IMG/VR virus record: IMGVR_UViG_3300030419_003817
Location: 1-64,000 of that record
Reading direction: 5' to 3' (one strand)
Source of the DNA: a virus
DNA: 64,000 bases
In this document: positions 13,843 to 36,187 of the stretch, one piece after another
Position numbering within the stretch: the stretch's first letter is position 1
How the letters are laid out: every line of letters starts with the position of its first letter
The notes under the pieces: model-generated
The model's database searches: none
What the model saw: only the letters and a program-made list of their open reading frames with translations
Told to the model about the DNA's origin: nothing
Program-made: the position numbers and the translations under genes

Positions 13843-13844
13843 TT

Positions 13845-14522: not shown

Positions 14523-15246
14523 TCAAAACCCCAGAATCATAGTTCTCCATTTTCAGATATACTTTATTACCATCTATATTAACAAATGGTGCAGGGCAGT
14601 TTCCATAGGTGAGTGCTTTAATTTCTTGTAGCAATCCATCTGCATTATTCAAAAGAGACAGAGAAATTTCATGATTCAAGTCACTCCCCTTTGAGGAAAA
14701 ATAATCATCGGATGGTTGACTATATTCCATATCTTGTTGGTTGATTATATTATTAAAATTTTTCTTCAACAAATTCAAACCGATATCATTTGCTTTGAAA
14801 AAGATATCCTCGGCCACATCAGACTTTTGAACCTCAAAGAAGTCTGTGTCAATTATTTTACCAGAGTCTAATTCTTTATCAATGAAATGCATGGTGCTTC
14901 CATGTAATTTTTCATTTTTTCTAATTGCCCATGTGGCACTGTGCCTTCCTCTATACTTCAATCTATATGAGTGATGAAAATTAATTATTCCCATCGGAAC
15001 TTTTTCTATAGTTTCCTCATCAATTATATTCCAGTAACTAAGAGAAATTGCCAAGTCCGACTTTTCTATAACATCATCGAATGATTGAATTAATTGTGTT
15101 GGAATGTTATTCTGTTCTGCCCATTGTTTGTTGTTTGTATGCACTGCTACAATTTCATAACCCATCCCTTTTTGGTTATCAAACAACCAATTAACATAAG
15201 GCAAAAAATAATCTCTTTCGTTTAAAAGTATTCCAACTCTTTTCAT
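14506..15246 (-). CDS. Sugar N-formyltransferase-like protein
   Basis: A 246-residue formyltransferase-fold protein. INFHHSYRLKYRGRH (residues 88-102) supplies Asn89 and His91, and KELDSGKIID (about 124-133) the catalytic Asp126, so the triad is complete. Such enzymes use N10-formyl-tetrahydrofolate to formylate the amino group of 3- or 4-amino-dideoxy sugars. It is immediately downstream of a DegT-type aminotransferase (ATGA overlap) and a 4,6-dehydratase, the order expected for a formylated amino-dideoxy sugar pathway. Methionyl-tRNA formyltransferase is less likely given the short length and the context. Confidence 0.85.
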   Translation of the reverse strand: MKRVGILLNERDYFLPYVNWLFDNQKGMGYEIVAVHTNNKQWAEQNNIPTQLIQSFDDVIEKSDLAISLSYWNIIDEETIEKVPMGIINFHHSYRLKYRGRHSATWAIRKNEKLHGSTMHFIDKELDSGKIIDTDFFEVQKSDVAEDIFFKANDIGLNLLKKNFNNIINQQDMEYSQPSDDYFSSKGSDLNHEISLSLLNNADGLLQEIKALTYGNCPAPFVNIDGNKVYLKMENYDSGVLNEKQQ

Positions 15247-16376
15247 AAAAGTTCCTCAAGAGACCGATAAATGTTACCTATGTCTTCTTCGTTTAACCAC
15301 CAACCGCATGGCAACGATAATTGATTTTCATAGAAGTAGTCCGTTTGTGGCAAGTCTTCAAAACTGTCTTTAAAGCAAGTATAATAATGACAAGGAACAT
15401 GAACCAAACCTGCACCGATACCCTGTTCATTTAAACTTCTAAGAATCTCATCTCGGTCTAGGGTTTCATCCAACAAAACCGTATAGACCCAATGAGAAGG
15501 ATTGGAGTTTGTTGGAAATGACAGAGGTGTTATTTTGTCATTTGTAGAAAACCTATTGAAATATGTTTTTGCGTTTTCCCTGTGTTTATCTATTATGGTT
15601 TGCATGTGTTCAATCTGAGACAAACCCAAAGCGGCAGAAACATTATTCATGTAGAATTTATGTCCTGCTTCATCTATATCAACATTCCATCTCTGACCTT
15701 TCCATTCTCCCTTTTCGTCTTTGCATCCGTCCCTATCGAACCCGAACCATTTTAATTTCTTTGCTTTATGGTAATCGCTTTCATCCGAACAAACCAACAA
15801 CCCACCATCACCACAGGTAATATGTTTTATTGCTTGAAAACTATAACAGGTAAAATCAGAGAAGTGACAGACATGCTTTCCCTCATAAGTGGCGCCAAAA
15901 GAGTGAGCGGCGTCTTGGATTAGTTTGATTCCATTTTTTCTACACAAATCGTGGAGTTCTTTTAACTCACAGGGTAGTCCTGCCCAATTTACACAGAGAA
16001 CTGCTTTTGTCTTTTTGTTTATCTTCTTCTTAATATCTTCTAGGTTGACATTTCCTGTTTCACTCTTTATGTCTGCCCACACCAATTTACCACCAACATC
16101 ATGAACAGGTGTAACCGATGCAACACATGTCATGGATGGTACTATGACTTCCAGACCCTCTTTGACTCCAGATAACCTTAGAGCGAGTGTTAAAGCACTG
16201 GTGCAACTATTGAGTGGCACAACTTTAGTATGGTCTAGATAGGTTTCCATCTCTGTTGTAAATCGTGCTACCTCTTTGCCTTCATTTAAGAATCCGCTTT
16301 CAAGAACTTGTCTAACATTTGTCAGTGCTGTTTCAACATCAACATGAACTTTAAAAATTGGGTAATTATATTTCAT
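15243..16376 (-). CDS. DegT/DnrJ/EryC1/StrS family sugar aminotransferase
   Basis: PLP-dependent aminotransferase of 377 residues, the usual family length, converting a nucleotide 4-keto or 3-keto sugar to an amino sugar. Visible: LNSCTSALTLAL near residue 56 (PLP phosphate site), VPSMTCVAS, QDAAHSFGATYEG near residue 155, and SFQAIKHITCGDGG near residue 185 with the PLP lysine. It follows a 4,6-dehydratase gene with no gap and overlaps the formyltransferase downstream. Together they look like a pathway to a 4-(or 3-)formamido-dideoxy sugar (inference). Confidence 0.93.
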   Translation of the reverse strand: MKYNYPIFKVHVDVETALTNVRQVLESGFLNEGKEVARFTTEMETYLDHTKVVPLNSCTSALTLALRLSGVKEGLEVIVPSMTCVASVTPVHDVGGKLVWADIKSETGNVNLEDIKKKINKKTKAVLCVNWAGLPCELKELHDLCRKNGIKLIQDAAHSFGATYEGKHVCHFSDFTCYSFQAIKHITCGDGGLLVCSDESDYHKAKKLKWFGFDRDGCKDEKGEWKGQRWNVDIDEAGHKFYMNNVSAALGLSQIEHMQTIIDKHRENAKTYFNRFSTNDKITPLSFPTNSNPSHWVYTVLLDETLDRDEILRSLNEQGIGAGLVHVPCHYYTCFKDSFEDLPQTDYFYENQLSLPCGWWLNEEDIGNIYRSLEELL

Positions 16377-17393
16377 TTAACCTCTCTTATATTCTTTAAT
16401 GTTTCTGCCGATAAATTCTTCTGCATCCCTTTCAAGGAGGGACAACCCCATAAGATATTCTTTTAACTCTTCCTTCGTCATAACATCCTGTTCACTACTA
16501 TATTCAAATATGGTTTCACTAAGTTGTGTAGTATATGATGGTTTTAAAACATAGTGACTCTCAATATCTACTGCTCTTGATGATTCTGACTCCGAAACTA
16601 ATGCTTCGTGTAACTTTTCTCCTGGTCGTATTCCTGTATAGATTATCTTCTTATCATACATCTCTGCATATATTTCTGCCAAATCCATTATTCTCATAGA
16701 TTTTAGTTTTGGAATCCATGTTTCTCCGCTTTGTGATTTTTCTAGTGTAGTCACAATCAAATCAACACTGTCATCCAAAGTCATTAAAAACCTTGTCATA
16801 GACGGATGAGTTACGGTCAAAGAATCTCTTGTTTTCACCTGATGATTGAACAGAGGAATAATACTTCCTCTAGAGTCTAAAACATTTCCATAACGAACAG
16901 CAATAAACTTAACATTGTTATTGTGTTCACCCTTTGAACGAACGGTTACTAATCTTTCAGAGACAGACTTACACATTCCATAAACATTTACTGGGGAACA
17001 TGCTTTATCTGTACTTACCATCAAAACAGATTCCAAATCAGTGAGTCTGTTTATGTTCTCCTCTACCGCACTCACAATATTATGAATGCCAAGAATATTT
17101 GTTTGTACACTTTCAAAGGGAGACAATTCGCATGTGTCTACCTGCTTTAATGCAGATGCAATGATTACAATGTTTGGGTTAAACTGAAAAAGTATTTCCT
17201 TGACCCTATGAATGTCCCGAATGTCTCCGACACTGAAGGATAGGTTTTCAGAATTAAAATCGTTCTTGATTGTCCAGTGTTTTGCCTCATCTCTGGAAAA
17301 AACCAAAACATCATTTTCTCCGTGGAGTCTTTTAATTAGAGTCTGACCTAAAGAACCAGACCCCCCAAAAATTAAAATTTTCTTATTCTTCAT
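16377..17393 (-). CDS. Nucleotide-sugar 4,6-dehydratase (CapD/PseB-like SDR)
   Basis: A 338-residue extended SDR of the polysaccharide biosynthesis type. Seen: ILIFGGSGSLGQTLIK (NAD site), VSTDKACSPVNVYGMCK (active-site YxxxK; the STDKA stretch is characteristic of CapD/FlaA1/PseB), and GETWIPKL plus GIRPGEKLHE further on. The family converts UDP-N-acetylglucosamine or a similar donor to the 4-keto-6-deoxy sugar. The ATG at 17393 is preferred because GGAGAG lies 9 nt before it; an ATG 18 nt upstream lacks such a site. It overlaps the upstream dehydrogenase by 11 nt and feeds the aminotransferase gene downstream. Confidence 0.92.
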   Translation of the reverse strand: MKNKKILIFGGSGSLGQTLIKRLHGENDVLVFSRDEAKHWTIKNDFNSENLSFSVGDIRDIHRVKEILFQFNPNIVIIASALKQVDTCELSPFESVQTNILGIHNIVSAVEENINRLTDLESVLMVSTDKACSPVNVYGMCKSVSERLVTVRSKGEHNNNVKFIAVRYGNVLDSRGSIIPLFNHQVKTRDSLTVTHPSMTRFLMTLDDSVDLIVTTLEKSQSGETWIPKLKSMRIMDLAEIYAEMYDKKIIYTGIRPGEKLHEALVSESESSRAVDIESHYVLKPSYTTQLSETIFEYSSEQDVMTKEELKEYLMGLSLLERDAEEFIGRNIKEYKRG

Positions 17394-18492
17394 AATGAAA
17401 CAACTCTCCATATATGTTTTTCACTTGGTCTATCACTTCTTTAGTTTCTTTGATGATTATATTATATCCCATTTTCGCCAACCGCACAGCAAATTCTAGT
17501 TGTTGAGACTCTTCAATACTGGCACACCCCTTTTTAAAAGTAACATCTGTTATTGTAATTGGGGTTTCTATTGGACGATTGACTATGAAATTATCCAGTT
17601 GGTGTAGTAGGTGTTCTTTATTTGACTTATCACATGCTTTGTTCATGTGTGCATCAATTCCAACTGAGTCTGCACACCTGATAAAGGCACGATTGTCTCT
17701 TGGAAAACAAGGTCCACCATAACCAAATCCATACTTAAAATATTGATTACCAATTCTATCATCAGAACCTATCGCATTTAAAACTTTATCTGGGTTTGCT
17801 CCCAACCGAATGGCGACATCACCGATTGTGTTTGCCATGGAAATTTTTGCAGTCAGTGAACAATTAAGTCCAACCTTTGTAAGTTCTGCACTTGTTCTAT
17901 CCATTCTATGTAAACTATAAGTTGATTTACACATCTTAGAATAAATCGATGCAATTAAATCTCCTGCTTCAGAATTTTCCTCACCAATAATTACAATCTT
18001 GGGGTATAATTGGTCGTTAACTATCTGTCCTTGTGCTATTGTTTCTGGATTGAAACTTACGATGTAATTGTACTCTCTCAACCTTTCTGCCACGGTATCT
18101 GAATAACCTGGCTGAACATTACTGCATATAACTACATGCTTTGGGTGTTCCTGTTTTCCCAATTGTTTTAAGTCAAATATTAAACTTTCAATTTGACTGT
18201 GATTGTACTTTCCATCTTCATTGGATTCTGTTCTCAAAACTACGAAAAGCAAATCAGAATTCGATACCGTGTACTGTATAGAGTTTACTGCTTTAAAATT
18301 TTTGTAGTTTTGAATTAGTTCATTTACACCAACCTCTGATGATGTAAAAGACCTGTCATTAATTGAATCTATATATCCGTCATCCCTTATATCATAACCA
18401 ATTACATTAAATCCTGCTCTTTCTAAGTTTAGAGCAAAACACAACCCAATTCTACCGATTCCAATTACGGCAATATTTTGTTCAGAATTCAT
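17383..18492 (-). CDS. UDP-glucose/GDP-mannose dehydrogenase family protein
   Basis: A 369-residue nucleotide-sugar 6-dehydrogenase. N-terminal Rossmann motif IAVIGIGRIGLCFA, central dimerisation helix with ELTKVGLNCSLTAKIS, and the catalytic Cys in GYGGPCFPRDN (about residue 263). A shortened C-terminal nucleotide-binding domain is present, unlike the 283-residue homologue at 7231-8082. The product would be a UDP-uronic acid or equivalent. It overlaps the sulfotransferase gene upstream by 11 nt and the dehydratase downstream, so expression is coupled. Confidence 0.9.
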   Translation of the reverse strand: MNSEQNIAVIGIGRIGLCFALNLERAGFNVIGYDIRDDGYIDSINDRSFTSSEVGVNELIQNYKNFKAVNSIQYTVSNSDLLFVVLRTESNEDGKYNHSQIESLIFDLKQLGKQEHPKHVVICSNVQPGYSDTVAERLREYNYIVSFNPETIAQGQIVNDQLYPKIVIIGEENSEAGDLIASIYSKMCKSTYSLHRMDRTSAELTKVGLNCSLTAKISMANTIGDVAIRLGANPDKVLNAIGSDDRIGNQYFKYGFGYGGPCFPRDNRAFIRCADSVGIDAHMNKACDKSNKEHLLHQLDNFIVNRPIETPITITDVTFKKGCASIEESQQLEFAVRLAKMGYNIIIKETKEVIDQVKNIYGELFHYEE

Positions 18493-19228
18493 AATTAAAA
18501 CACTCCAAGTCCTCTTTATACATCGATTCTATAATTTCTATGGCTTCATCATCATAATATTCTCTATAATCAGATTTTCTTTTTGATGGGTTTTCATGAA
18601 TGCCTTTTAGGTTATTATCACATCCAATTGTATCACATATTTTTTGAAAGTCATCATTTAAATGTTCAAATTTACCCACAAAATCAACTAAAATTTTATC
18701 ATTTGAAGCATCTGATAAAAACCTCTTTTGTGTTTCAAAGGTTGCCCGCCAGTTAAACCTTGGGTCGTACCAACAACCCTCCGTCTTCAATGACTTAACC
18801 CAAGAGGAAAATCCTTTTTTGTTATTAGAAAATCTCTTAAATAAAAGGTCTTGTGGTGAATTTCTATCTTCTCTTTGGTGATATGAGAATCTAGAAACAC
18901 AAGCATCGAAAGGATTTCTTACGAAAGAAAATGAATAACATTCACTTAGGGGCGGCGAGTTTAAAACAGCAACCACATCGGCGTGGTGCTTCTTTCCTTT
19001 CCTTTTATATTTTTCTCGGAGTGACTCTGCATACTCCCAAAATCTCGGAGGTTGGTGTTTATTTGGCGAAACCTTAATAACCCATTCCTGTTTTGGAATG
19101 TCGAAGTATTTTACTAGTTTCCACCTGTATCCTACGCTCTCCAACGCAACCCTTATACTATGGCCTGCCGTCTTTTGTGTGTGAATAAATACTATTGGTT
19201 TTAAATCTTCATTGATTGATATTGGCAT
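18482..19228 (-). CDS. Carbohydrate sulfotransferase-like protein
   Basis: A 248-residue PAPS-dependent sulfotransferase of the Sulfotransfer_2 type, the group with heparan and chondroitin sulfotransferases. The 5'-phosphosulfate loop FIHTQKTAGHSI (residues about 14-25) and the 3'-phosphate site SFVRNPFDACVSRFS (about 98-112) are both clear. The family transfers sulfate from PAPS to sugar hydroxyl groups. No PAPS synthesis gene is present here, so the donor would come from the host. It is sandwiched between an FkbM methyltransferase and a UDP-glucose-dehydrogenase-like gene, consistent with sulfation of a uronate-containing glycan (inference). Confidence 0.88.
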   Translation of the reverse strand: MPISINEDLKPIVFIHTQKTAGHSIRVALESVGYRWKLVKYFDIPKQEWVIKVSPNKHQPPRFWEYAESLREKYKRKGKKHHADVVAVLNSPPLSECYSFSFVRNPFDACVSRFSYHQREDRNSPQDLLFKRFSNNKKGFSSWVKSLKTEGCWYDPRFNWRATFETQKRFLSDASNDKILVDFVGKFEHLNDDFQKICDTIGCDNNLKGIHENPSKRKSDYREYYDDEAIEIIESMYKEDLECFNYEF

Positions 19229-22339: not shown

Positions 22340-23222
22340 TAATTAAATCTCTCCAATATTTGAACCATAATTTATCCATATTATACACTTGATTGTTGTA
22401 ATTGTCCAACATCTCTTTGTATTTATTATCAATATTTTCTTTCGTAACTTCAGTCCAATCATCTACAAACCATATAGGCATATCGTAAAACTCTTCCATA
22501 GACTTATGCTTCTTTACTATTGGGAAAGATTTTAAGATGAGAGTTTGCCAAATTCTATGGCAATCATAACCTGTTCCAAATGGACAAACATTAAACTTAT
22601 GCTTTCTTATTTCTCTGTAGTAATTTTTCAGGAAGTCTGTATGTCTTCGGTCTTCGTTTGTGTAATGTCGATATGTTGAAAATTCTTGTTCTTTGAAATA
22701 TTCTAAACACGACATACGCTCTTTCTTGTTGGTGTGTGGTTGAAAACTTATCAACACATCAGAAGAACCTTCGTCTATTATTTCGATATTTACTACCTCA
22801 AAGTGACTAGGAATTGCTTGTGGATTATCATCGAATCTCCAATTTTTGTTGTCGATTCCTAATGGTATTGTTTGAATTCTTTCATCACCAGTTGTGTTAT
22901 TCACCGCAAACCATTTTATTAGATTGTCTGGTAGTCGTTCTTCATACCTTTGATTGATTGTAATATCACTTCTTCCAGAAATTAAGATATATGGGTTTTT
23001 AATTCTTGGCGCAAACTGTTCAAAGAATATGTCCAACAATTCACCAACCACATAAATTTTGTCTCCACTTTCAACTTGTTCTGGAAACAACCCACCCATT
23101 GCCTTAACATATTCGGTATCGTTAGGAAGCATTAGGGCATGTTGACACATTGTCCTAAATGTATAGGATGTTATATATGGGTCGCTTGATACTTTATCAC
23201 GAAGTGCTTTCACATAATTCAT
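22314..23222 (-). CDS. Exostosin-like glycosyltransferase
   Basis: A 302-residue protein with a C-terminal half resembling the exostosin/GT47 catalytic region: KHKFNVCPFGTGYDCHRIW near residue 220 followed by LKSFPIVKK and an FYDMPIWFVDDW segment. Residues 70-160 hold a Rossmann-like part with YILISGRSD and IPLGIDNKNW. The gene overlaps the bona fide exostosin-like gene upstream by 26 nt, suggesting the two act in the same pathway, perhaps as a pair as in glycosaminoglycan polymerases (inference). Confidence 0.7.
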   Translation of the reverse strand: MNYVKALRDKVSSDPYITSYTFRTMCQHALMLPNDTEYVKAMGGLFPEQVESGDKIYVVGELLDIFFEQFAPRIKNPYILISGRSDITINQRYEERLPDNLIKWFAVNNTTGDERIQTIPLGIDNKNWRFDDNPQAIPSHFEVVNIEIIDEGSSDVLISFQPHTNKKERMSCLEYFKEQEFSTYRHYTNEDRRHTDFLKNYYREIRKHKFNVCPFGTGYDCHRIWQTLILKSFPIVKKHKSMEEFYDMPIWFVDDWTEVTKENIDNKYKEMLDNYNNQVYNMDKLWFKYWRDLINACVPTDD

Positions 23223-24228
23223 CTTGTTGTATTGCCTTTTTTATATTCTTTGCAAATCCAAGAGGAGACAAATATTCTTTCCACAATTCTCTGTTTGCCT
23301 TTTGAATTTCTAATAAACTCTCTGTCGAATGGTTGTTGAAAAACCTTCTCACATAATGGTTAATTGAATTCCAGTTTTTGTGGGGAACTCGTACACAATG
23401 CTTATCCCAATCAATTACCGACTCAAAAGGTAAAACCATATCAGTGTCTACATGAATTGGTATTCTTCCCATTGAAAGAACTTCATTAAATCTCATAGAG
23501 AAGTTTCCAGAACCCCGTGTGCAAAGTGTGAATAAATTTCTTTCTATGTTATTGTAATGGTCACGGACGGCAACATCTTTTGGAACTCCATTTGCCCAAA
23601 AATACTTTCTAATAATATAGTCTGTCTCGATATTTTCATCTTCTTCTAAAACATAGAGAGTTGCTTGACGAATATTGTGTTCTTTTGTACCAAAGAAACC
23701 ACAAAAACCAACAGTTGGTTTTGCAGTTTTGTCCAGATATACATCATTAAATCTGTCACATCTAAATGGTGGGAGTGCGTATTCGTGTGGTTTTCTTTCA
23801 TTGCCATACATTGAAGTTCTTAAGATTATACCATCCTCTGGTTGAAGTGGAAGGTCGCCGGGATAATCATCTTCGAATAGTTGTAACACCTTTTTACCAT
23901 GTTGTCTGGCAAGGTCAATATATGGATTTCCTGCATCTATATCTTTCCACATATTAAAGGGGTCTGCTACAGTTGGCCAATGTGGCCACTTAAAGGGAAG
24001 ATAAACAAAATCACAGTCTTCAACTGAAGTAAGTTCAATGTAATCTTTACCTTTCTCTATCAACTCTTCAAACCGATTAACTTCGTGTGGTTGAAGAACT
24101 TCTTTCTTCAAACGAGATATGCCATGCTTCTCTTCTAAGAATGGAAATAGAAGCATGGTTTCGCTTTTGTTTCCCAACCACTTTGGGTCAAACTCGTCAA
24201 GGTTGCAGTATAGTTTTAATTTGCTCAT
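23197..24228 (-). CDS. Exostosin family (GT47) glycosyltransferase
   Basis: A 343-residue exostosin-type transferase. FVYLPFKWP near residue 85, KVLQLFEDDYPGD, and the family signature CTRGSGNFSMRFNEVLSMGRIPI near residue 265 are visible; the last is the nucleotide-sugar-binding R.xE.L..G.IP motif. Exostosin relatives use UDP-glucuronate, UDP-GlcNAc, UDP-galactose or UDP-xylose. Start is ATG 24228, overlapping the glutamine synthetase stop as ATGA; a longer frame reading would run into that gene. Two UDP-glucose-dehydrogenase-like genes in the same island could supply UDP-uronate. Confidence 0.85.
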   Translation of the reverse strand: MSKLKLYCNLDEFDPKWLGNKSETMLLFPFLEEKHGISRLKKEVLQPHEVNRFEELIEKGKDYIELTSVEDCDFVYLPFKWPHWPTVADPFNMWKDIDAGNPYIDLARQHGKKVLQLFEDDYPGDLPLQPEDGIILRTSMYGNERKPHEYALPPFRCDRFNDVYLDKTAKPTVGFCGFFGTKEHNIRQATLYVLEEDENIETDYIIRKYFWANGVPKDVAVRDHYNNIERNLFTLCTRGSGNFSMRFNEVLSMGRIPIHVDTDMVLPFESVIDWDKHCVRVPHKNWNSINHYVRRFFNNHSTESLLEIQKANRELWKEYLSPLGFAKNIKKAIQQDELCESTS

Positions 24229-25304
24229 TCTACTGTCGCATAGTTTGTAACGGGCATTTCTTTGGGTAGTTTTGGTGTGTGCATCACCAAACAAGAAATT
24301 GCTTCATATGGGTCGACATTTGCCGCCGGTCTTCTGTCTTCTAAATAACCTTTACCATTATTTACTACTGTTACTGGCACCCTGATTGATACGCTTCTAT
24401 CCATTTCACCCCAAGTAAAATCATCATAATGTGAAGTTTCGTGTTTACCTGTTAGTCTTCTTTCGTTTCCTTCCCCATAAACTTCCATGAAACTTCCATG
24501 TTCAACTTCAAGAGCATCAATTATTTCCTTAATATATTCTCCACCACCCACATCTCGTAGATATTCTGTTGAAAAGTTTATATGGGCACCAGAACCATTC
24601 CAATCACCATCAATTGGTTTTGGGTCATAAGATATAGAACATCCCAATCTTTCTGACAACCTTTGAATGATGAATCTAGAAATCCAAAGTTGGTCGCAAC
24701 AATCTAATGCGTGTAGAGGACCCAATTGATATTCCCACTGTCCCAACATAACCTCTGCGTTTGTTCCGCCGAGTGACAACCCTGCACGGTGGCATAGGGA
24801 TGTATGTTGTTCGACTAAAAGTCTTCCTGCGTTTACACCTCCACCAATACCACAATAGTATTTTCCTTGTGGGTTTGCCTCTTCATCTTTCGGCCATCCG
24901 ACTGGTTTTTTTGTGTCATTATCGATTATTGTGTATTCTTGTTCGATACCAAAAACCATATCGTTTCCACACTCAATTAAAGTTTCCCTGAGTTTTGCTC
25001 TAGTGTTTGTTTCGTGAATAGAACCATCAGAATTTAAAACCTCACAATATACCAAAAGAGAATTTCCTTGGTCGAATGGGTTTGTGTAAACAAAAACTGG
25101 ATTCAAAATACAATCGCTATTGTCGATTTCTGCTTGACTGGTACTAGAACCATCAAATGACCAAGGAGAACAAAGAGATAACAACTCCTCTTGAGAATAT
25201 GCTTGATTCTCACTCTCTTGTGGCCACTCTTCAAATTTGCACTTGCTTCTTAGATTTTTTGTGCTGTATCCATCTAACCAAATATATTCTAGTTTCATTA
25301 ACAT
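24225..25304 (-). CDS. Type II (eukaryote-type) glutamine synthetase
   Basis: ATP-dependent glutamate-ammonia ligase of the GSII class, 359 residues, the normal GSII length and far shorter than bacterial GSI (about 470). Motifs: WSFDGSSTSQAE near residue 48, GIEQEYTI near 120 (metal Glu pair), GQWEYQLGP near 195, NGSGAHINFST near 240, ERRLTGKHETSH near 285, and YLEDRRPAANVDPY near 330. ATG 25304 has GGAG 9 nt upstream. Set in a glycan operon, it may recharge glutamine or glutamate for amino-sugar formation, or support nitrogen supply. GSII also occurs in some bacteria, so direct eukaryotic origin is not implied. Confidence 0.95.
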   Translation of the reverse strand: MLMKLEYIWLDGYSTKNLRSKCKFEEWPQESENQAYSQEELLSLCSPWSFDGSSTSQAEIDNSDCILNPVFVYTNPFDQGNSLLVYCEVLNSDGSIHETNTRAKLRETLIECGNDMVFGIEQEYTIIDNDTKKPVGWPKDEEANPQGKYYCGIGGGVNAGRLLVEQHTSLCHRAGLSLGGTNAEVMLGQWEYQLGPLHALDCCDQLWISRFIIQRLSERLGCSISYDPKPIDGDWNGSGAHINFSTEYLRDVGGGEYIKEIIDALEVEHGSFMEVYGEGNERRLTGKHETSHYDDFTWGEMDRSVSIRVPVTVVNNGKGYLEDRRPAANVDPYEAISCLVMHTPKLPKEMPVTNYATVE

Positions 25305-26077
25305 GTGACTTTTCTCCTCATGATTTTATTAAAGTCTTCGTTTTGTAAATTCCACATTCCATAATTTTTAAATCGTTGAATTTTAGAATCAACGCCACTT
25401 ATGTAATTGTTGTGTACAAGATATTTTTGCGACTCTCCAATTTTATTGTCGAAATACGCCTGTCCGTTCGGAAAATATTGCATGGGCAACACACCCACAT
25501 TTAAATCCTGTAAACCTTCGATTGAACCCCGTCTTCCATATATTTCATTAAACGATGCTTGGTCGCCGGTTGATTGTCCCTTCTCTATATTCTTTGCGTG
25601 TAGTTTCATACACTCATCATAAAACTTTAGAGTCTTTTCATTTGACCGAATGTAAACAACACCTGTACATAGACTTTTCCACCGACCCCCTAGGTCAGAA
25701 TCGTCTTGAATCATTATGTCAAACTTCTCTGAGTCTGGAACATTTGAAATAAACTCTAGTGGGTCTTTAAATATCACATTGTCTGTGTCTAAGTAAAACA
25801 CATTACTTGTTTGTAATGCATCTATGATTGATTTTATTTTATAATGAACAACTCTGTGAAACCCATTAGTATTCCAGTCTTGATAGTCCTCGTGTGTTTC
25901 TGCACCTATACAATTAACATCCAACCCATAGGATTCTAGTTTATCTTTTGATGCAGAGTCGGCAGCGTAGAGCAAAATTTGCTCATCTTCTATGCCCAGT
26001 TTTTTTAAACTGTACACACAATTTAAACACATATCTGAAGCACCATCGTTGGTGTATAACAAAAAACAATCTTTCAT
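25298..26077 (-). CDS. Nucleotide-diphospho-sugar transferase (GT77/GT8-like)
   Basis: A 259-residue GT-A fold protein. CFLLYTNDGAS at the start, NVFYLDTDNVIFKDP near residue 95 giving the DxD metal site, TGVVYIRSNEKTL near 140, and GDQASFNEIYG near 170 follow the order seen in the Nucleotid_trans (GT77) and GT8 groups, which add galactose, xylose or arabinose-type sugars. It overlaps the glutamine synthetase start by 7 nt. Donor unknown. Confidence 0.82.
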   Translation of the reverse strand: MKDCFLLYTNDGASDMCLNCVYSLKKLGIEDEQILLYAADSASKDKLESYGLDVNCIGAETHEDYQDWNTNGFHRVVHYKIKSIIDALQTSNVFYLDTDNVIFKDPLEFISNVPDSEKFDIMIQDDSDLGGRWKSLCTGVVYIRSNEKTLKFYDECMKLHAKNIEKGQSTGDQASFNEIYGRRGSIEGLQDLNVGVLPMQYFPNGQAYFDNKIGESQKYLVHNNYISGVDSKIQRFKNYGMWNLQNEDFNKIMRRKVTC

Positions 26078-26828: not shown

Positions 26829-27239
26829 TTATTTTGATTTCCCTATATGGTATTTAGGACACAATTCCCAGTCATCTTTGTCTTTGTACGATAATATCTT
26901 AATTTGACTTAATGGTGTTATTGGTTCTTGACAACTATCGTAGTCTACAATTTCCAATAGTCCCCACTCTTCCAGAAGACCGGCAATTGCATTTCTTCTG
27001 CCTATGTCACTTTCTGATATATCTGTCTTTAGTCCATCTAAGGCAAACAATTCCTTAAAATGAACAATGTAGTACTTTCCTCTTTTGTGTAGAATGTGGC
27101 AAGACTGAAATAGTTTCTTTTCTTTTCTTGAAGATACACCAATTCTTGTGAGTGTCTCTCTAACCTTCAAGAAATCATCGTCTTTCTCCAAAGTCACTTC
27201 AACCAAATCTTCAACATTTATTTGTTTATATTCTTTCAT
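26829..27239 (-). CDS. regA: RegA translational repressor
   Basis: T4 RegA binds early mRNAs near start codons and shuts off their translation, including its own. Many T4 RegA stretches recur: VRETLTRIGVSS, LFQSCHILHKRGKYYIVHFKE, and EEWGLLEIV, with a C-terminal PKYHIGK. At 136 residues it is longer than T4 RegA (122) by a short N-terminal extension and a longer C-terminal loop. ATG 27239 has AAGGTG upstream. Canonical position downstream of gene 62, but here an epimerase gene lies between them and 24 glycan genes separate it from the structural and polymerase genes that follow. Confidence 0.96.
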   Translation of the reverse strand: MKEYKQINVEDLVEVTLEKDDDFLKVRETLTRIGVSSRKEKKLFQSCHILHKRGKYYIVHFKELFALDGLKTDISESDIGRRNAIAGLLEEWGLLEIVDYDSCQEPITPLSQIKILSYKDKDDWELCPKYHIGKSK

Positions 27240-27282
27240 TATAATTACACCTTATTTGTAACTATTTAGTAAAAATGAAGAT

Positions 27283-28212
27283 TTAGTTTTTCATATACCA
27301 ATCAGCAGTCCTCTTTAGACCTTCCCAAATATCTACCTTTGGTGTGTAATCTAAATGACTTTTTGCTTTTTCAACCGAACCATGTGTTATATCAACATCA
27401 CCAATTCTTCTTGGAAGTTTCTTAGACTTAACATCATACTCTCTTAAAAACCAAAGCATAATTTCATTGACAGATGTGGTCTCTCCGCACGATATATTAT
27501 ATGCCTCTCCTAGAAATTCTCCTTCATATAGGGATGCTTTTAAAAGGGCATCGGTCACATTGTCAATGTAACAAAAGTCTCTAGATTGTGAACCATCACC
27601 ATAAAGAATCAATTCATTTCCCTGCTTGACGGCATCTAACCAAGAACATATGACTGTTGCGTATGGGTTGTCTCCAGTTTGGAGAGGACCAAACACCGTG
27701 AATAAACGAAGACATACCGTATCCAAGTCATACAACTTTGCATATAATCTACAAAATTCTTCTGCTGTTTTCTTTTGGAGTGCATATGGAGATATGGGAT
27801 TCAAATCAAAATCTTCCTCCACAGGCAGAACTTCTGAATTACCATATACAGAAGAGGATGATGCAAAAACAAATCTCTTAACCTTCCCCCTTACACAGGC
27901 ATCTAACAACTCAACCACCTTTACGATATTTTCGTTTGTAGTTTCTACTGGATGTTCGATTGAGTATGGAACTCTTGGAACTGCCGCTAAGTGAACGACC
28001 ACATCATAAACACCTTGTGCTACATCTTCGAGAATTTCTGAGGTGTCTGCACACATAGACTGCATATTGGCATAATTTAGTAAAAGGTTTCTTAGGTCAC
28101 AAACAGAATTGACATCTCTATCGACTACATTGAAGTTGATATTCTCCCCTGCACAACGCAAAGCAAAATTCTTTCCAATGAATCCCGCACCACCTGTAAT
28201 CAATATTTTCAT
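27283..28212 (-). CDS. Nucleotide-sugar epimerase (GalE-like SDR)
   Basis: A 309-residue extended SDR, typical of UDP-glucose 4-epimerase and UDP-glucuronate epimerase relatives. ILITGGAGFIGKNFA (NAD site), VVHLAAVPRVPYS near residue 70, SSSSVYG near 120, the YALQK catalytic pair near 145, and YGDGSQSRDFCYIDN near 205 are seen. It sits inside the replication cluster between gene 62 and regA, overlapping the end of gene 62 as ATGA. It may serve the glycan island; its exact sugar is unknown. Confidence 0.92.
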   Translation of the reverse strand: MKILITGGAGFIGKNFALRCAGENINFNVVDRDVNSVCDLRNLLLNYANMQSMCADTSEILEDVAQGVYDVVVHLAAVPRVPYSIEHPVETTNENIVKVVELLDACVRGKVKRFVFASSSSVYGNSEVLPVEEDFDLNPISPYALQKKTAEEFCRLYAKLYDLDTVCLRLFTVFGPLQTGDNPYATVICSWLDAVKQGNELILYGDGSQSRDFCYIDNVTDALLKASLYEGEFLGEAYNISCGETTSVNEIMLWFLREYDVKSKKLPRRIGDVDITHGSVEKAKSHLDYTPKVDIWEGLKRTADWYMKN

Positions 28213-28586
28213 AACATATCCTTGTATAGAGATTTTATTTCTTCAATCTCTGCTTTACTTAGAAGTGGGAGAACTTCCTTTGCTCTCTTGTATGAATAGT
28301 TATAGTGTTTTTTAACAACCTCTATCTCATCTATCTTTTCGGTCTTCAACCACTTACTGAATCGTTTTCTTTTGCGAAGACTATTAACCAAATAATCAAA
28401 ATGAAATTTTTTGTCTATGTTCGACATCGCATTCATTTCGTTCACATGAAAAATCGTATCTGTAAAATAAGACAAACACCTGTTAATTACATAAGGTGTG
28501 TATCCCTTTTCTACGAACTCATCATCCGTATCTAGTAGGGGTTCTTTTGTGTGGTTTATCGCATTTAAATAATTAGTTAGTTTCAT
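28209..28586 (-). CDS. 62: Clamp loader small subunit gp62
   Basis: Small subunit of the gp44/62 clamp loader that places gp45 on DNA. A 125-residue protein, shorter than T4 gp62 (187), with the conserved central pattern FHFDYLVNSLRKRKRFSKWLK (compare HFNYLM...RGKRYGKWAK in T4). The ATG at 28586 is used; the frame is open a little farther upstream but only with non-ATG codons, and this start already overlaps the GroES-like gene by 14 nt. Position next to gene 44 supports the call. Confidence 0.88.
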   Translation of the reverse strand: MKLTNYLNAINHTKEPLLDTDDEFVEKGYTPYVINRCLSYFTDTIFHVNEMNAMSNIDKKFHFDYLVNSLRKRKRFSKWLKTEKIDEIEVVKKHYNYSYKRAKEVLPLLSKAEIEEIKSLYKDML

Positions 28587-28899
28587 AATAACCAGTCGGT
28601 AAGGCCGCTTCATCATTCACGATAGCAACAATATGGTCTGATGAAATATAAGACATACCATTCATCATAGCACATTTATTTTTGTCGTAAAGAACTGTGT
28701 CTCCCTTTTTTACTGGTGGTGTCTGAAACTTACCATTGTTCATCTCTATGCCATTTCCTGCACTAACCACCTTACCTACAGCAAATGGTTCACGGTTTAC
28801 CTGATTTTCAATAATAATTCCAGATTTAGTTTTGGTTTGCTTTTCTCTTTCTATGAGAATTACAATCTTATTAACTGCTTGTAGTGGGTCTTTTTCCAT
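28573..28899 (-). CDS. GroES/gp31-like co-chaperonin
   Basis: A 108-residue protein with the Cpn10 pattern: NKIVILIEREKQTKTKSGIII at residues 10-30 (first strand, mobile loop region), AVGKVVSAGNG near 40, VKKGDTVLYDK near 64 and ISSDHIVAIVND near 86. The family caps GroEL-type chaperonins; T4 gp31 replaces host GroES for folding gp23. ATG 28899 has GGAG upstream. Its place between genes 44 and 62 is unlike T4, where gene 31 is elsewhere. A large insertion (roof loop) like that of gp31 is not obvious. Confidence 0.85.
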   Translation of the reverse strand: MEKDPLQAVNKIVILIEREKQTKTKSGIIIENQVNREPFAVGKVVSAGNGIEMNNGKFQTPPVKKGDTVLYDKNKCAMMNGMSYISSDHIVAIVNDEAALPTGYYETN

Positions 28900-28908
28900 T
28901 TTAATCTC

Positions 28909-29853
28909 CTACTTGATTTCACAATGCATCATTAATTCTGTTAAACATGCAGTCATGTTAATTTCATGGTCTGCAACAAACGCCGCCTTGTATTGATATT
29001 CTGCTAATACCAACACTGCTTGTGGGATTGATTGTTTTGTTAGATGAGAATAAACACCATCATACAACTTTCTAAAAAGTTGAGTTTGGTCATTGTCAAT
29101 ATTATCAACCACCCATTTTCTAACCTTGGTGAATTCCTTTTCTTTCATTGCAGATATTAGACTCTTTAGATTAATATCTCCAATCTGCGAAAGTATTCCA
29201 ACATCGATAGTTCCTGCAACAGAGTACCTTTGTAACTCATTGATGATTCTACGAAAATCTGGAAAGTGCTTCATGACTAGTTCAGCAAGCACCTTCTCTT
29301 CATACTTCACATTTTCATTATCAAGAATCATTTTAATTCTATCGAGAATGCCAGATGCTAGTTTTGGTTTTTCGCTGTTTGGGATTTTAAAATCTATGCA
29401 AGTACATCGAGAGTGGATTGGCGATATAATCCGATTCTTGTAATTACAAGTTAGTATAAATCTACAGTTGTTTGAAAACTCCTCGATGAATCCACGCAAT
29501 GCGGGTTGCGTAGATTGTGCGTTTGAATAATCAAACTCATCGAGGATAACTACCTTTTTGTTCCCTGCCAAAGAAACGGTGCTTGCAAAATTACGAATCT
29601 TCGTTCGGAGTGTGTCAATATTTCCATCTTCCGAACAGTTAATCATAATCCAATCTGTCTCTAATTCATTGCACAATGCCTTTGCAAGGGTGGTTTTACC
29701 ACACCCCGCACCACCAGACAAAAGAAGATTCTGAGACTCACCTGAATCAATTATGTCATGGAATGTTTGTTTAATGTGGGTTGGTAAAATACAATCATCA
29801 ATTTTTTGTGGACGGTATTTTTCCACCCACAGGTATTCTTTCACTTGAACCAT
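28909..29853 (-). CDS. 44: Clamp loader large subunit gp44 (AAA+ ATPase)
   Basis: ATPase subunit of the clamp loader. WVEKYRPQKIDD at the N-terminus, Walker A GGAGCGKTT near residue 47, Walker B VVILDEFDY near 103 and sensor/Arg finger HSRCTCIDF near 147 match gp44 and RFC small subunits. 314 residues, close to T4 (319). Start ATG 29853 has AAGGATA upstream. It is followed by the GroES-like gene and gp62, and preceded by a GDP-mannose 3,5-epimerase gene. Confidence 0.97.
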   Translation of the reverse strand: MVQVKEYLWVEKYRPQKIDDCILPTHIKQTFHDIIDSGESQNLLLSGGAGCGKTTLAKALCNELETDWIMINCSEDGNIDTLRTKIRNFASTVSLAGNKKVVILDEFDYSNAQSTQPALRGFIEEFSNNCRFILTCNYKNRIISPIHSRCTCIDFKIPNSEKPKLASGILDRIKMILDNENVKYEEKVLAELVMKHFPDFRRIINELQRYSVAGTIDVGILSQIGDINLKSLISAMKEKEFTKVRKWVVDNIDNDQTQLFRKLYDGVYSHLTKQSIPQAVLVLAEYQYKAAFVADHEINMTACLTELMMHCEIK

Positions 29854-29867
29854 TATATAATATATCC

Positions 29868-30944
29868 TTAATGTTGTGAAGTATAAAGCACTCGGTCACG
29901 CATATCCAAATCAGCAACACTTATTCCATCACAATGCCAATGTCTGGCGTTGTCTGCTTTGATTTCAACTCGTACCCCTTCTTCACGCAGTTTCACTTGT
30001 TCAGAAATCCACTCGTAGGTTTTCTCCATTCCCTCTTGGAGAGACATCGAATAATCCCATCCAAGTTTTTCACGAATCAAATTGTTGTCGGAGTTTCTCC
30101 CACGAACGCCTTCTGGTCCTTCAATATTGTTAATTGTAAGTGATTTTCCAGAAATGTCAATTGCCATCTGAGCAAAATCATTAATTGCAATCATTTCTTC
30201 CGAACCAATGTTTACAGGTCCGTGGAAGTCTGACTCCATTAATTTAAGCATGGCATCTACACACTCATCGACATATAAGAATGAACGAGTCTGCTTTCCA
30301 TCACCCCAAACTTCAATTGATGTGCCATCTTCTGCAAGTGATGCTTTTCTGCACATTGCGGCGGGTGCTTTTTCTCTTCCACCATCCCAAGTCCCCTCTG
30401 GACCAAAGATATTATGAAACCTTGCAACCCTAACATCTAGATTGTAGTTCCGCATGTATGCAAGAAAAACTCTTTCGCTAAATAACTTTTCCCAACCATA
30501 TTCGCTGTCAGGATTCGCGGGGTACGCAGAATCTTCAGAACACATTGGGTTATCTGGGTCAAGTTGGTTGTGTTCGGGATACATGCAAGCAGATGAGGAG
30601 TAAAATACTTTCCCGACATCGTGCTTTACTGCTCTCTCAACAATGTTAAGATTAATTAGTGCCGAGTTATGCATGATGTCTGCATCATTTTCTCCAGTGA
30701 AAACAAAACCCGCACCGCCCATGTCTGCGGCGAGTTGATAAACTTCATCAATTCTAGTATCAAACAATGCATCACAAACGAGTTGGTCACGCAAGTCTCC
30801 GATAACAAAATCATCGGCAGGTGACTCACCATACTCTGTGTATTTTAAATCACACACACGAACCCAATGTCCTTGTTCTTTTAGTCTTTTGACTAAGTGA
30901 CTTCCAATAAATCCTCCACCACCACAAACTAGTATATTTTTCAT
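29868..30944 (-). CDS. GDP-mannose 3,5-epimerase
   Basis: A 358-residue SDR strongly resembling plant GDP-mannose 3',5'-epimerase, which makes GDP-L-galactose and GDP-L-gulose. Diagnostic stretches include QLAADMGGAGFV near residue 70, SSSACMYPEHNQL near 115, SEYGWEKL (catalytic Tyr/Lys), RFHNIFGPEGTW, GGREKAPAAMCRKA near 188, and GPEGVRGRNSDNNLIREKLGW near 275. A C-terminal tail of about 45 residues (HWHCDGIS) has no known match. It lies between genes 44 and 45, a replication locus, and may supply the fucosyltransferase-like proteins of the island. Confidence 0.93.
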   Translation of the reverse strand: MKNILVCGGGGFIGSHLVKRLKEQGHWVRVCDLKYTEYGESPADDFVIGDLRDQLVCDALFDTRIDEVYQLAADMGGAGFVFTGENDADIMHNSALINLNIVERAVKHDVGKVFYSSSACMYPEHNQLDPDNPMCSEDSAYPANPDSEYGWEKLFSERVFLAYMRNYNLDVRVARFHNIFGPEGTWDGGREKAPAAMCRKASLAEDGTSIEVWGDGKQTRSFLYVDECVDAMLKLMESDFHGPVNIGSEEMIAINDFAQMAIDISGKSLTINNIEGPEGVRGRNSDNNLIREKLGWDYSMSLQEGMEKTYEWISEQVKLREEGVRVEIKADNARHWHCDGISVADLDMRDRVLYTSQH

Positions 30945-30947
30945 AAT

Positions 30948-31640
30948 TTATCCTTTGTATGTTGAATCGGATTCAAGTGCAATCCAATATGTTACATTCT
31001 TGTTTTTGTTTACAAACCGACTCACAACCTTGTCTGTGATGGAAACATCATAATCACCAGACATCATTTTAAGATTCTCCACTTTGAAGTTAAACTTAAA
31101 ATCATCATCAGGAGTTGGCAAAGAACCAAGGTCGATTGAATAACTGTTTGAGGTCACATCGTCCTTATCGTGAATTAGCATAACCATTGAATCTCCGTCA
31201 GTTCGAACAGAGAGGTCTGGTAGTTGAAGAACTGAACCTGCTCTAAGAAGTTCAGTATAGTCTGATTCATCTAACTCAAACTCAACTACTGGTTCTGGCA
31301 TATTAATTTTCTTATTTACCGTTGTGAGTAGTTGTGGTTCACTATAGAAATACTTAACAGAAGAACCATTCTCGCCACTGATAATAACATAGTTATCGTG
31401 GAACTCAAACTCTGGTTCTGTGAAAAGACTTACAGTTGAAAGAAACTTATTCAAGTCCCAAATACCAAACTGCGTATCAAATGTTTCTGATACTTCTGCC
31501 TCTGCTAAAACATTCTTTACTGGTGAAACTGTTCTTATAGTATTGCCTGGTTCTACTAAAATGTTGGAATTAATTCCTGCAAAGTTTTTTAGAATGTCCA
31601 GTGTTTCTTGTGAAAGTTTCATCGCTGTCGCTGTACTCAT
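30948..31640 (-). CDS. 45: Sliding clamp gp45
   Basis: Trimeric DNA sliding clamp, processivity factor for gp43 and activator of late transcription through gp55/gp33. 230 residues (T4: 228). Seen: LSQETLDILKNFAGINSNIL, FDTQFGIWDLNKFLS near residue 58, and FNFKVENLKMMSGDYDV near 190, all aligning with T4 gp45. The ATG at 31640 has GGAG 6 nt before it and is preferred to one 12 nt upstream. Next in order is the GDP-mannose epimerase gene. Confidence 0.96.
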   Translation of the reverse strand: MSTATAMKLSQETLDILKNFAGINSNILVEPGNTIRTVSPVKNVLAEAEVSETFDTQFGIWDLNKFLSTVSLFTEPEFEFHDNYVIISGENGSSVKYFYSEPQLLTTVNKKINMPEPVVEFELDESDYTELLRAGSVLQLPDLSVRTDGDSMVMLIHDKDDVTSNSYSIDLGSLPTPDDDFKFNFKVENLKMMSGDYDVSITDKVVSRFVNKNKNVTYWIALESDSTYKG

Positions 31641-31658
31641 AATATTCTCCATGTTAAA

Positions 31659-33794: not shown

Positions 33795-33800
33795 GGGTGT

Positions 33801-33829
33801 ATTATATATTAGTATACATCAATTGTCAA
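33801..33829 (-). promoter_or_regulatory. Consensus sigma70 promoter before the 33794 gene
   Basis: On the minus strand TTGACA (33824-33829) and TATAAT (33801-33806) are separated by exactly 17 nt, a perfect consensus pair. It lies in the 42-nt gap after the methyltransferase gene. Only 6 nt follow the -10 box before the ATG at 33794, so initiation at the usual distance would start at the A of the ATG. It should fire with the host holoenzyme, that is early in infection, and could also feed rnh and the clamp cluster. Confidence 0.85.
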
Positions 33830-33836
33830 GGTTGTT

Positions 33837-35426
33837 TTATGGTTTGTAAAATACAAAAACAGGTTCATATTTTAAATATTTGCCGTTCACCATGCAGTAA
33901 TTTTTGCATTTAGGAACTCCGTTCTCATCAAGTCTGTTTTGCCCCGGCATTAATTCTAGACCCATTTTAAGAACATACTTGTATTCCATTCCCAATCCCT
34001 CTAGGATATCAATTGAGTCTTGCTCAAGAGGCAGGTAATCACCACTCACCAAAAGGTCTGCTATGTTCCATAGCATGTATCTGTCAGACTTCAACCAATG
34101 ATAGCAAGTCTCCAGTGTTGGTCTTAGGAATCCGTCTCTCCATGATTCGTATGTGTTGCCATATTTTTTATACGACTGATTTTCATCTTCACTGTACGCC
34201 TCTCTGTTGAAGTATGGAGGGGAGGTGAAGATGAGGTCGAGGTTTCCTTTGTATTGTTGGAAGTCTGGATGGTACTGTATTTCTTCTGACCCTTCCATAA
34301 ACTGGTGGTAAGTATTTGTTTCGGAAAAGAATGGATTTCCCCTATAAGTTTGGGTATTGTAGAAATCAGCGAGAGATTCATACTTACTACCACCTTCACT
34401 CCCATAAAAATTATCAGGATTTGGGTCAGTACCAACATAATGAATGCTACGGTCATCCCTACAGGCCATAGCACCAAGTATGCGACCACCCCACCCACTT
34501 GATGGGTCATAGATGTTAATAACCTCTTGGTCTTTGATATCATCTGTAAACCTTTCATACAAATACTTTGCTGTCATTGGAGGGTAGTTAACTGCCACCT
34601 GAATATAACCTATTCTGAATGATGCAAAACACTTCGGAAAAATCTTCTTTCCTTTTTGGTATACACGAATAGCATATACTTTATCGTCTGGCATATCATC
34701 AATATCAAAGGTAGAGTGGTGTCTATATTCCAACCAATCACAGTCTTTAAATTTTTGAACTTGTTCTTTTGTTAATTGAAGAATCTTTGATTGTTCTATC
34801 TGAAAATAACCTGTGTTCAGTCCATCACGAATCTTCACTTGCTCTAATATAAAATCGTAACCTTTAAAGATTTTTGAATTGTTAAAGAATGCTTCAATCC
34901 ACTCCTCACCGCTATCAACAGAAACTACAGAGTACTTTGCATCGTTTTTAATTGCCGACAATGCAAAGTTATAGAAAGAGTCTCTACGAATATGTCTCAT
35001 CGCTCCCCTTACCACACGGGGTAAAAACTTATCGTCTGCAAACAAATCATATATTGAGTGACCGTTATCCTTTGCTGTGTAGTTGATTCTGGTTTTCATC
35101 ATATTTGAAAACCACTGGTCTGCTTCAACACCCAATCTTGATTTGTTTATAATGACATCATCCTCAACATCAGATAATTCATCCGTATGAGTAAAAAGAT
35201 GAACAGGATATTCTGCCATCTTGTTGAACTGCTCTACAATGTCTTTCTCGTTTTTCCCTGTTCGTGGTGGACAACCGTATTTGTCCCAAGACTTGACAAT
35301 CTCTTTTCTCATGCGAACTACCCAGTCTTCAAACTCTTCTGGTGTCATTGCAACGACATCCTCGTAATTAACATTAATGTCTGAGTTAATTACACTTTCA
35401 TTTCTTTCGTAAAAAGTTTTATTCAT
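33837..35426 (-). CDS. DNA methyltransferase with long N-terminal domain
   Basis: A 529-residue SAM-dependent DNA methyltransferase. Motif I, YDPSSGWGGRILGA, lies near residue 306 and the catalytic motif IV, FTSPPYF, near 401; this TSPPY form is typical of N4-cytosine and some N6-adenine enzymes. A distal NYCMVNGKYLKYEPVFVFYK segment closes the domain. The first 290 residues form a separate domain of unknown fold that may recognise DNA. ATG 35426 overlaps the PLP-enzyme stop as ATGA. It could be a solitary protective methylase or part of a base hypermodification route with that neighbour (inference). Confidence 0.9.
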   Translation of the reverse strand: MNKTFYERNESVINSDINVNYEDVVAMTPEEFEDWVVRMRKEIVKSWDKYGCPPRTGKNEKDIVEQFNKMAEYPVHLFTHTDELSDVEDDVIINKSRLGVEADQWFSNMMKTRINYTAKDNGHSIYDLFADDKFLPRVVRGAMRHIRRDSFYNFALSAIKNDAKYSVVSVDSGEEWIEAFFNNSKIFKGYDFILEQVKIRDGLNTGYFQIEQSKILQLTKEQVQKFKDCDWLEYRHHSTFDIDDMPDDKVYAIRVYQKGKKIFPKCFASFRIGYIQVAVNYPPMTAKYLYERFTDDIKDQEVINIYDPSSGWGGRILGAMACRDDRSIHYVGTDPNPDNFYGSEGGSKYESLADFYNTQTYRGNPFFSETNTYHQFMEGSEEIQYHPDFQQYKGNLDLIFTSPPYFNREAYSEDENQSYKKYGNTYESWRDGFLRPTLETCYHWLKSDRYMLWNIADLLVSGDYLPLEQDSIDILEGLGMEYKYVLKMGLELMPGQNRLDENGVPKCKNYCMVNGKYLKYEPVFVFYKP

Positions 35427-36187
35427 GACCCTACATTCCAAAACAATGCTCCTTCACTTGCATACTCCCTTACAAATTTCCACGCCTTCGCATCATATGT
35501 TGGAACGGAGGGAAATGGTGGAGCATCTTTTGCTTTTACTGATTGGTTAAATTTTAATTCAGAGCGATAAACTTTTGCTCTTCCATAATCACCTTTGTGT
35601 CCCACAGACACACAATGAAATTCTGCGTTCGGCCATGCTTGTTGTAAACCTCTTGTTAAAGTTCCACTCGAACCAACCGTCCAAACTTCTTTTGGGTTTA
35701 CTTCCATAGATTCAGCAACCCTAGCAATGGAAGCGACAGCAGAAGGATGGTCAAACCCAATAGGAAGCAGTCTACGACTTTCTGAATTTTCTCCAACATA
35801 ATCCTTCGCTCTTTTTTGTGTCACTGTTAACATGCCATTAGGTACGAACCTCATGTCCGCACCCTCCATTATAGCACTCTTTTGATATTTTGTCAATTTA
35901 TCTTTTGCTCTATCCGCCATGAATATTACGGCACTCTTGTTGTATCTGTTACACAAAACACTCAAAGCAATTTGGGCATACCCGTTAGCAGGACTGCTCC
36001 CGTATACCCATTCTCTGACCTCTGGATTGTTTCGTATTAGATAATCCCCTGCTCTTTGTTTCGTTCCTCCCACCAACAAATCATCACGAACAACCAAAAC
36101 CCCTTCATGTTCCTCAATCACAGGAGTTGGAGATGGGTCTTGCCATTCACCAATATCAAATAACTCTGGTTCAAATAGAGAGGGCAT
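35423..36187 (-). CDS. Fold-type II PLP-dependent enzyme-like protein
   Basis: A 254-residue protein related to the tryptophan synthase beta/cysteine synthase/ACC deaminase superfamily. RDDLLVGGTKQRAGDYL places the PLP lysine at residue 43, GSSPANGYAQIAL near 63 fits the substrate loop and VGSSGTLTRG (171-180) the phosphate cup. It is shorter than ACC deaminase (about 340). It overlaps both neighbours: an endonuclease VII gene by 17 nt upstream and the methyltransferase downstream by ATGA. Possible roles are an amino-acid-derived DNA modification or amino acid metabolism; nothing in the sequence decides. Confidence 0.78.
   Translation of the reverse strand: MPSLFEPELFDIGEWQDPSPTPVIEEHEGVLVVRDDLLVGGTKQRAGDYLIRNNPEVREWVYGSSPANGYAQIALSVLCNRYNKSAVIFMADRAKDKLTKYQKSAIMEGADMRFVPNGMLTVTQKRAKDYVGENSESRRLLPIGFDHPSAVASIARVAESMEVNPKEVWTVGSSGTLTRGLQQAWPNAEFHCVSVGHKGDYGRAKVYRSELKFNQSVKAKDAPPFPSVPTYDAKAWKFVREYASEGALFWNVGS

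Follow-up and report, generated by a model that had tools for sequence, protein, structure and literature searches.

The glnA-II gene described here encodes a type II glutamine synthetase (GSII) that is probably catalytically competent. It probably serves a T4-like marine phage as an auxiliary metabolic gene of nitrogen and nucleotide supply, and it appears to have been relocated in this phage into an operon of glycosyltransferase genes. The stretch of DNA that was analysed, referred to here as the window, is 64,000 nucleotides long and belongs to an uncultured IMG/VR contig of 90,940 bases, which is a fragment.

The gene and the phage record

The gene lies as follows.

24225..25304, minus strand: glnA-II, type II glutamine synthetase, 359 amino acids; ATG at 25304, second ATG at 25298, stop at 24227-24225

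The 359-residue protein given for this interval in the preliminary description was confirmed as an intact open reading frame of the minus strand, and the plus strand there is full of stops. The protein has both glutamine synthetase domains, the beta-grasp N domain and the Gln-synt_C catalytic domain, and its length fits GSII (about 330-380 amino acids). When it was scored with the NCBIfam models, GlnII gave 353 bits compared to 75 for GSI GlnA, 39 for GSIII, and 31 for gamma-glutamylputrescine synthetase, and among solved structures GSII matched best with E=1e-91 while the top GSI matched with 4e-10. The GlnII equivalog model NF041605 has a curated cut-off of 500 bits, which the protein does not reach; it is clearly placed in GSII by its sequence, though not under this naming model. 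Thus, of the earlier designation 'eukaryote-type GSII', the type, with its motifs and length, was borne out, and the eukaryotic origin was not, as described below. The identity of the protein to any relative found is at most 55%. PADLOC did not list GSII as a known defence protein.

The record carries the T4-type genes for the major head protein gp23, scaffold, portal, sheath, terminase, clamp, clamp loader, and RegA, and the portal is nearest to that of Pelagibacter phage Mosig (56%) and then to those of cyanophages. By this gene content, the GSII gene is a metabolic gene inside a bona fide T4-like marine phage genome. The genes needed for the comparisons below are the following.

26829..31652, minus strand: T4-like replication block, with two epimerase genes between its members
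26829-27239, minus strand: RegA
28209-28616, minus strand: clamp loader gp62
28573-28899, minus strand: GroES-like protein (Cpn10), between gp44 and gp62
28909-29853, minus strand: gp44
30948-31652, minus strand: clamp gp45
33837..35441, minus strand: DNA methylase-like protein, whose counterpart precedes GSII in sister phages (65-82% identical)

No tRNA was found in the window, and no Rfam family either, so there is no known glutamine riboswitch in it.

Usual address of GSII and its place in the window

In sister T4-like phages the gene order is gp47, gp46, DNA methylase, GSII, a small gene or a relative of window gene 32685, RNaseH, and clamp, and the clamp is often followed by two sugar-nucleotide genes, gp44, GroES, gp62, RegA, and glycosyltransferases. 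GSII is found in these phages between the methylase (or gp46) and RNaseH or the clamp. It follows the methylase directly in 30 loci, from about 23 distinct contigs (repeats removed by hand); in 44 loci another gene follows the methylase, and in three more GSII lies just before it. In a neighbouring branch the order is primase, GSII, ThyX, and then class II ribonucleotide reductase. One contig, represented by loci L008 and L304, has an empty methylase slot and carries GSII at the primase slot. All 14 of the GSII-bearing records checked have one copy of GSII each. A gene of the IMP dehydrogenase/GMP reductase family is present in three of the four T4-like GSII records longer than 120 kb and in none of the five GSII-lacking records tested, a small sample in which most records are fragments and in which the enzyme names rest on Pfam PF00478 and on a reading of the sequences. 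Two IMP dehydrogenase-like genes (L387:542-1603 and L389:594-1691) and one GMP reductase-like gene (L388:583-1626) were seen as purine enzymes of large GSII-bearing T4-like phages. In L308, which is without the large methylase and GSII, a different methylase-like open reading frame of 252 amino acids (1453-2211) lies between gp47 and gp46.

In the window, the slot that holds GSII in the sister phages, and the actual surroundings of the gene, are as follows.

33795..33836, minus strand: slot between the methylase and the next gene; a 42-bp gap with no GSII, then gene 32685
25298..26077, minus strand: upstream neighbour, a GT77-like nucleotide-diphospho-sugar transferase (PF03407), whose stop overlaps the GSII start by 7 bp (ATGTTAA)
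within 25310..25320, minus strand: AGGAG ribosome-binding site of GSII, read directly, within the last part of the GT77 gene
23197..24228, minus strand: downstream neighbour, an exostosin-like GT47 glycosyltransferase (PF03016), whose ATG overlaps the GSII stop by 4 bp (ATGA)
24223..25316, minus strand: GSII cassette of about 1.1 kb with its own ribosome-binding site, missing at the GT77-GT47 junction in L307 and L386
5964..23222, minus strand: glycan gene cluster with glycosyltransferases, epimerase, nucleotide-sugar dehydrogenases, FkbM methyltransferase, and others
15243-16376, minus strand: DegT/PseC-like aminotransferase of this cluster
16377-17411, minus strand: PseB-like dehydratase of this cluster
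18482-19228, minus strand: sulfotransferase of this cluster

A perfect TTGACA-17-TATAAT was observed on the minus strand at 33829-33801, exactly in the slot that holds GSII in sister phages, and a second one at 35896-35868, upstream, within the gene preceding the methylase. The overlap of the GSII gene with glycosyltransferase genes on both sides, stated in the preliminary description, was found again. The 70-bp overlap with GT47 in the list of open reading frames is a product of an upstream TTG start at 24294; with the GT47 start set by alignment with L307 it is 4 bp. From these overlaps, GSII is predicted to be translationally coupled to both glycosyltransferase neighbours.

When the flanking glycosyltransferases were used as single-protein queries, no close relatives were found, and an alignment-based query with them retrieved two loci, L386 and once more the L307 contig. 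L307 is the closest relative of the window phage (86% for gp44) and has the series w26087, GT77, GT47, RXYLT, FUT8, GT2, and u19873 as in the window, 64-86% identical, without GSII. When the DNA was aligned, window 29829-25317 corresponded to L307 6147-10724 and window 24222-19873 to L307 10730-15060, with a clean break, and in L386 the GT77-GT47 junction is likewise without GSII. As the methylase slot is where GSII is retained in the clade of the window, a move of GSII into the glycosyltransferase operon in the window lineage would be a simpler account than its loss in these relatives. The position in this operon is best read as a change of address and not as evidence of a sugar function.

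A sugar function is nevertheless the alternative that survives best, although we consider it unlikely. According to it, GSII is part of the glycan pathway and supplies glutamine through host GlmS to UDP-GlcNAc and from there to the PseB, DegT, and formyltransferase steps, hence its coupling to the glycosyltransferases by 7 and 4 bp. The operon also contains DegT/PseC-like and PseB-like genes as well as formyltransferase genes, which would fit. This reading does not agree with the order of the operon being the same without GSII in the two closest relatives, nor with GSII lying outside glycan operons, among replication or dNTP genes, in the window's clade and in the sister clade. Conserved linkage of GSII with glycan genes across relatives was not found, and GSII and DegT are not linked either: G055 and G059, which lack GSII, have DegT, and the 134.8-kb GSII record G043 has none. 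The same results weigh against the more specific proposal in the preliminary description that GSII recharges glutamine and glutamate for the DegT aminotransferase. PseC-type sugar aminotransferases use glutamate, which glutamine synthetase consumes, and the recharging idea is therefore chemically weak. Moreover, no glutamate synthase of the families tested was found in the window's record, and the weak matches obtained in three relatives came from barrels of the IMPDH/GMP-reductase type. GSII may still contribute to glycans indirectly, if its glutamine feeds host GlmS and thereby the formation of UDP-GlcNAc. Two formyltransferases, the PseC-like aminotransferase, the PseB-like dehydratase, and a nucleotide-sugar dehydrogenase were observed at window 13201-15246 and 15243-18492, and these sugar genes (window 13201-18492) suggest an N-formylated amino sugar made by the phage.

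Ancestry, active site and probable function

Glutamine synthetase had been described at the outset as rare in tailed phages, and this could not be upheld, as at least 577 stretches of viral contigs encode GSII relatives (228 in a narrower scan). Among annotated phage records only four, all from uncultured huge phages, had GSII, and the remaining matches were distant, with 24-26% identity. In the maximum-likelihood tree the window protein falls in a virus-only clade of 15 rows (bootstrap/SH-aLRT 100/97), which is nested in a viral clade of 23 rows (98/92). Grouping with yeast and plant GSII was rejected by the AU test (p=0.00013). The virus-only clade and this rejection, which dispose of 'eukaryote-type' as a statement of origin, argue that the window copy did not come from eukaryotes and was not recently captured from any bacterium found, and it appears to derive from an old phage GSII lineage. 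A single origin for all viral GSII was also rejected by the AU test (p=0.0015), from which it would follow that phages probably acquired GSII at least twice. The precise insertion of a single gene and its patchy presence among relatives could also mean that it is a passenger under no selection, left by a recent host capture or by recombination. We consider this quite improbable in view of the deep virus-only clade, whose long branches have kept an intact frame and active site, and of the recurrence of GSII as a single copy at different sites.

The alignment of catalytic residues that had been proposed as a check on the preliminary description included the window protein, maize, yeast, and Streptomyces GSII, 53 other viral sequences, and 14 bacterial ones. 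In maize numbering, D56, E129, E131, E192, E199, N244, G245, H249, R291, E297, R311, R316, and R332 are kept in the window protein, and none of the catalytic positions checked varies among the window, the other viral, and the bacterial sequences of this alignment. E322 of the window protein, in the motif EDRRP, is also invariant, as read from separate lists of invariant positions. Residues are numbered and assigned roles as in the published maize GSII structures, and on this basis none of the residues checked at the metal, glutamate, ATP, and ammonium sites is changed. The window protein departs from the reference and bacterial GSII at seven positions where all of those used agree, none of them among the active-site residues checked. 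The AlphaFold2 model of the protein has a pLDDT of 85, and its top PDB matches are GSII of Streptomyces (4bax) and maize (2d3a) with a TM of 0.86. Compared to these, GlnII of Streptomyces coelicolor and maize GS1a, the window protein shares the two-domain architecture, the length, the active-site residues checked, and the predicted fold, and it differs in being only about 43-44% identical (structural alignment), in being phage-borne, and in belonging to a virus-only clade of its own. The gene thus apparently encodes a catalytically competent GSII. That it is instead a GS-like ligase with another substrate, such as a gamma-glutamyl ligase whose target is a sugar amine, a polyamine, or a modified base, would fit its divergence from all relatives found, its score under the GlnII equivalog cut-off, and its place among biosynthetic genes, but is the least probable of the alternatives, as the catalytic and ammonium-site residues checked are kept, no clade has an altered active site, and the known gamma-glutamylpolyamine synthetases are GSI-like, their model giving 31 bits of the 650 needed.

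We therefore return to nitrogen and nucleotide supply. A nitrogen-assimilating auxiliary gene had been one of the suggestions of the preliminary description, and it is supported, as is the GSII identity; the record that carries the gene has T4-like genes for head, tail, and replication. In an infection, the phage GSII would use glutamate, ammonium, and ATP to produce glutamine, on which host amidotransferases would draw in making nucleotides, amino acids, and amino sugars. GATase_6, GATase class I, and GATase_2 were all absent in the record and in the relatives searched, and with no amidotransferase partner in the record the use of glutamine rests on host enzymes. The lineage is normally carried once per genome in the DNA-replication/dNTP module, but the window phage has the gene in the glycosyltransferase operon, as a one-gene cassette equipped with its own ribosome-binding site. 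Ribonucleotide reductase is absent from the 91-kb record, and since this is a fragment the dNTP link of the window phage rests on its relatives. Adenylylation is known for GSI but is not known for GSII, and it is therefore plausible that the enzyme would benefit the phage by escaping controls, such as adenylylation, that are aimed at host GSI. If this is true, it would explain why phages keep the GSII type.

Earlier studies have already described phage glnA as an auxiliary gene, both from viromes of marine, estuarine, digester, and cyanobacterial-bloom origin (PMC10721903, PMC13288924, PMC9636769, PMC11944383, PMC12542629) and from jumbo phages (PMC13037316), and the window gene is ordinary in kind and of interest for its position. 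The reported genes are likewise viral glutamine synthetases with a proposed role in nitrogen assimilation, but in the sections of these reports considered here the type of enzyme, the synteny, and the catalytic residues are not stated, whereas the window gene is a GSII of a T4-like phage with a traced change of place. In the Global Ocean Sampling (PMC1821046), type II glutamine synthetase was abundant in marine samples and there were abundant new viral additions to the family; in the portions of that paper considered here the GSII sequences are mostly assigned to bacteria, and no T4-like context or fusion is described. Virome surveys often list phage glutamine synthetase, with the type seldom stated and the function given by annotation only. 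Here, a viral gene has been assigned to an old GSII lineage that contains only viruses and is usually located in the replication module. This makes a role in nucleotide and nitrogen supply testable and warns against inferring function from a single operon.

Thioredoxin-fold fusions in sister phages

Among the sister sequences, 13 distinct ones have an additional domain of about 110 amino acids fused in frame to the N-terminal side of GSII. In silico, this domain folds as beta-alpha-beta-alpha-beta-beta-alpha with thioredoxins as the top structural matches, its Pfam matches are below threshold, and the motifs CGWC and GTP are invariant in all 12 of the fusion loci aligned. The fusion has a single origin (tree support 98/94). 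This single-origin fusion is the most novel by-product of the analysis and is worth more than the GSII finding itself; in the open-access literature searched, no description was found of the fusion, of the T4-like synteny, or of the change of place. Examples of the fusions, and the loci of other, partly jumbo, phage lineages in which thioredoxin and glutaredoxin genes lie directly or closely behind GSII, are as follows.

L007:9614-11113, L013:9620-11113, L014:560-2014, L168:687-2126, L178:772-2175: thioredoxin-fold-GSII fusions of sister T4-like phages
L179:7620-9065, L184:2077-3495, L191:7662-9059, L209:4738-6171: further fusions of this kind in sister T4-like phages
L017:11137-13866, L049:11071-12016, L059:11074-11945, L069:9295-10161: thioredoxin and glutaredoxin genes behind GSII in the other lineages

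The separate redoxin genes would constitute a second link between GSII and redoxins. In plants, it has been shown that more thioredoxin m leads to higher activity and stability of GS2, though direct redox activation was not shown there (PMC8219043). The one-time fusion of the CGWC domain, together with the redoxin genes behind GSII elsewhere, suggests that the redoxin may keep GSII reduced or tie the supply of glutamine to ribonucleotide reductase. We put forward only tentatively that the GSII of phages is an enzyme of their nucleotide synthesis with a redox link, and the window enzyme would be an unfused and relocated member of this lineage. The fusions belong to the same GSII clade, phage type, and replication module as the window's lineage, but the window protein lacks a redoxin domain and its gene occupies another genomic position. 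At one position of the GSII domain all fusions have a cysteine, where the window protein has isoleucine 262.
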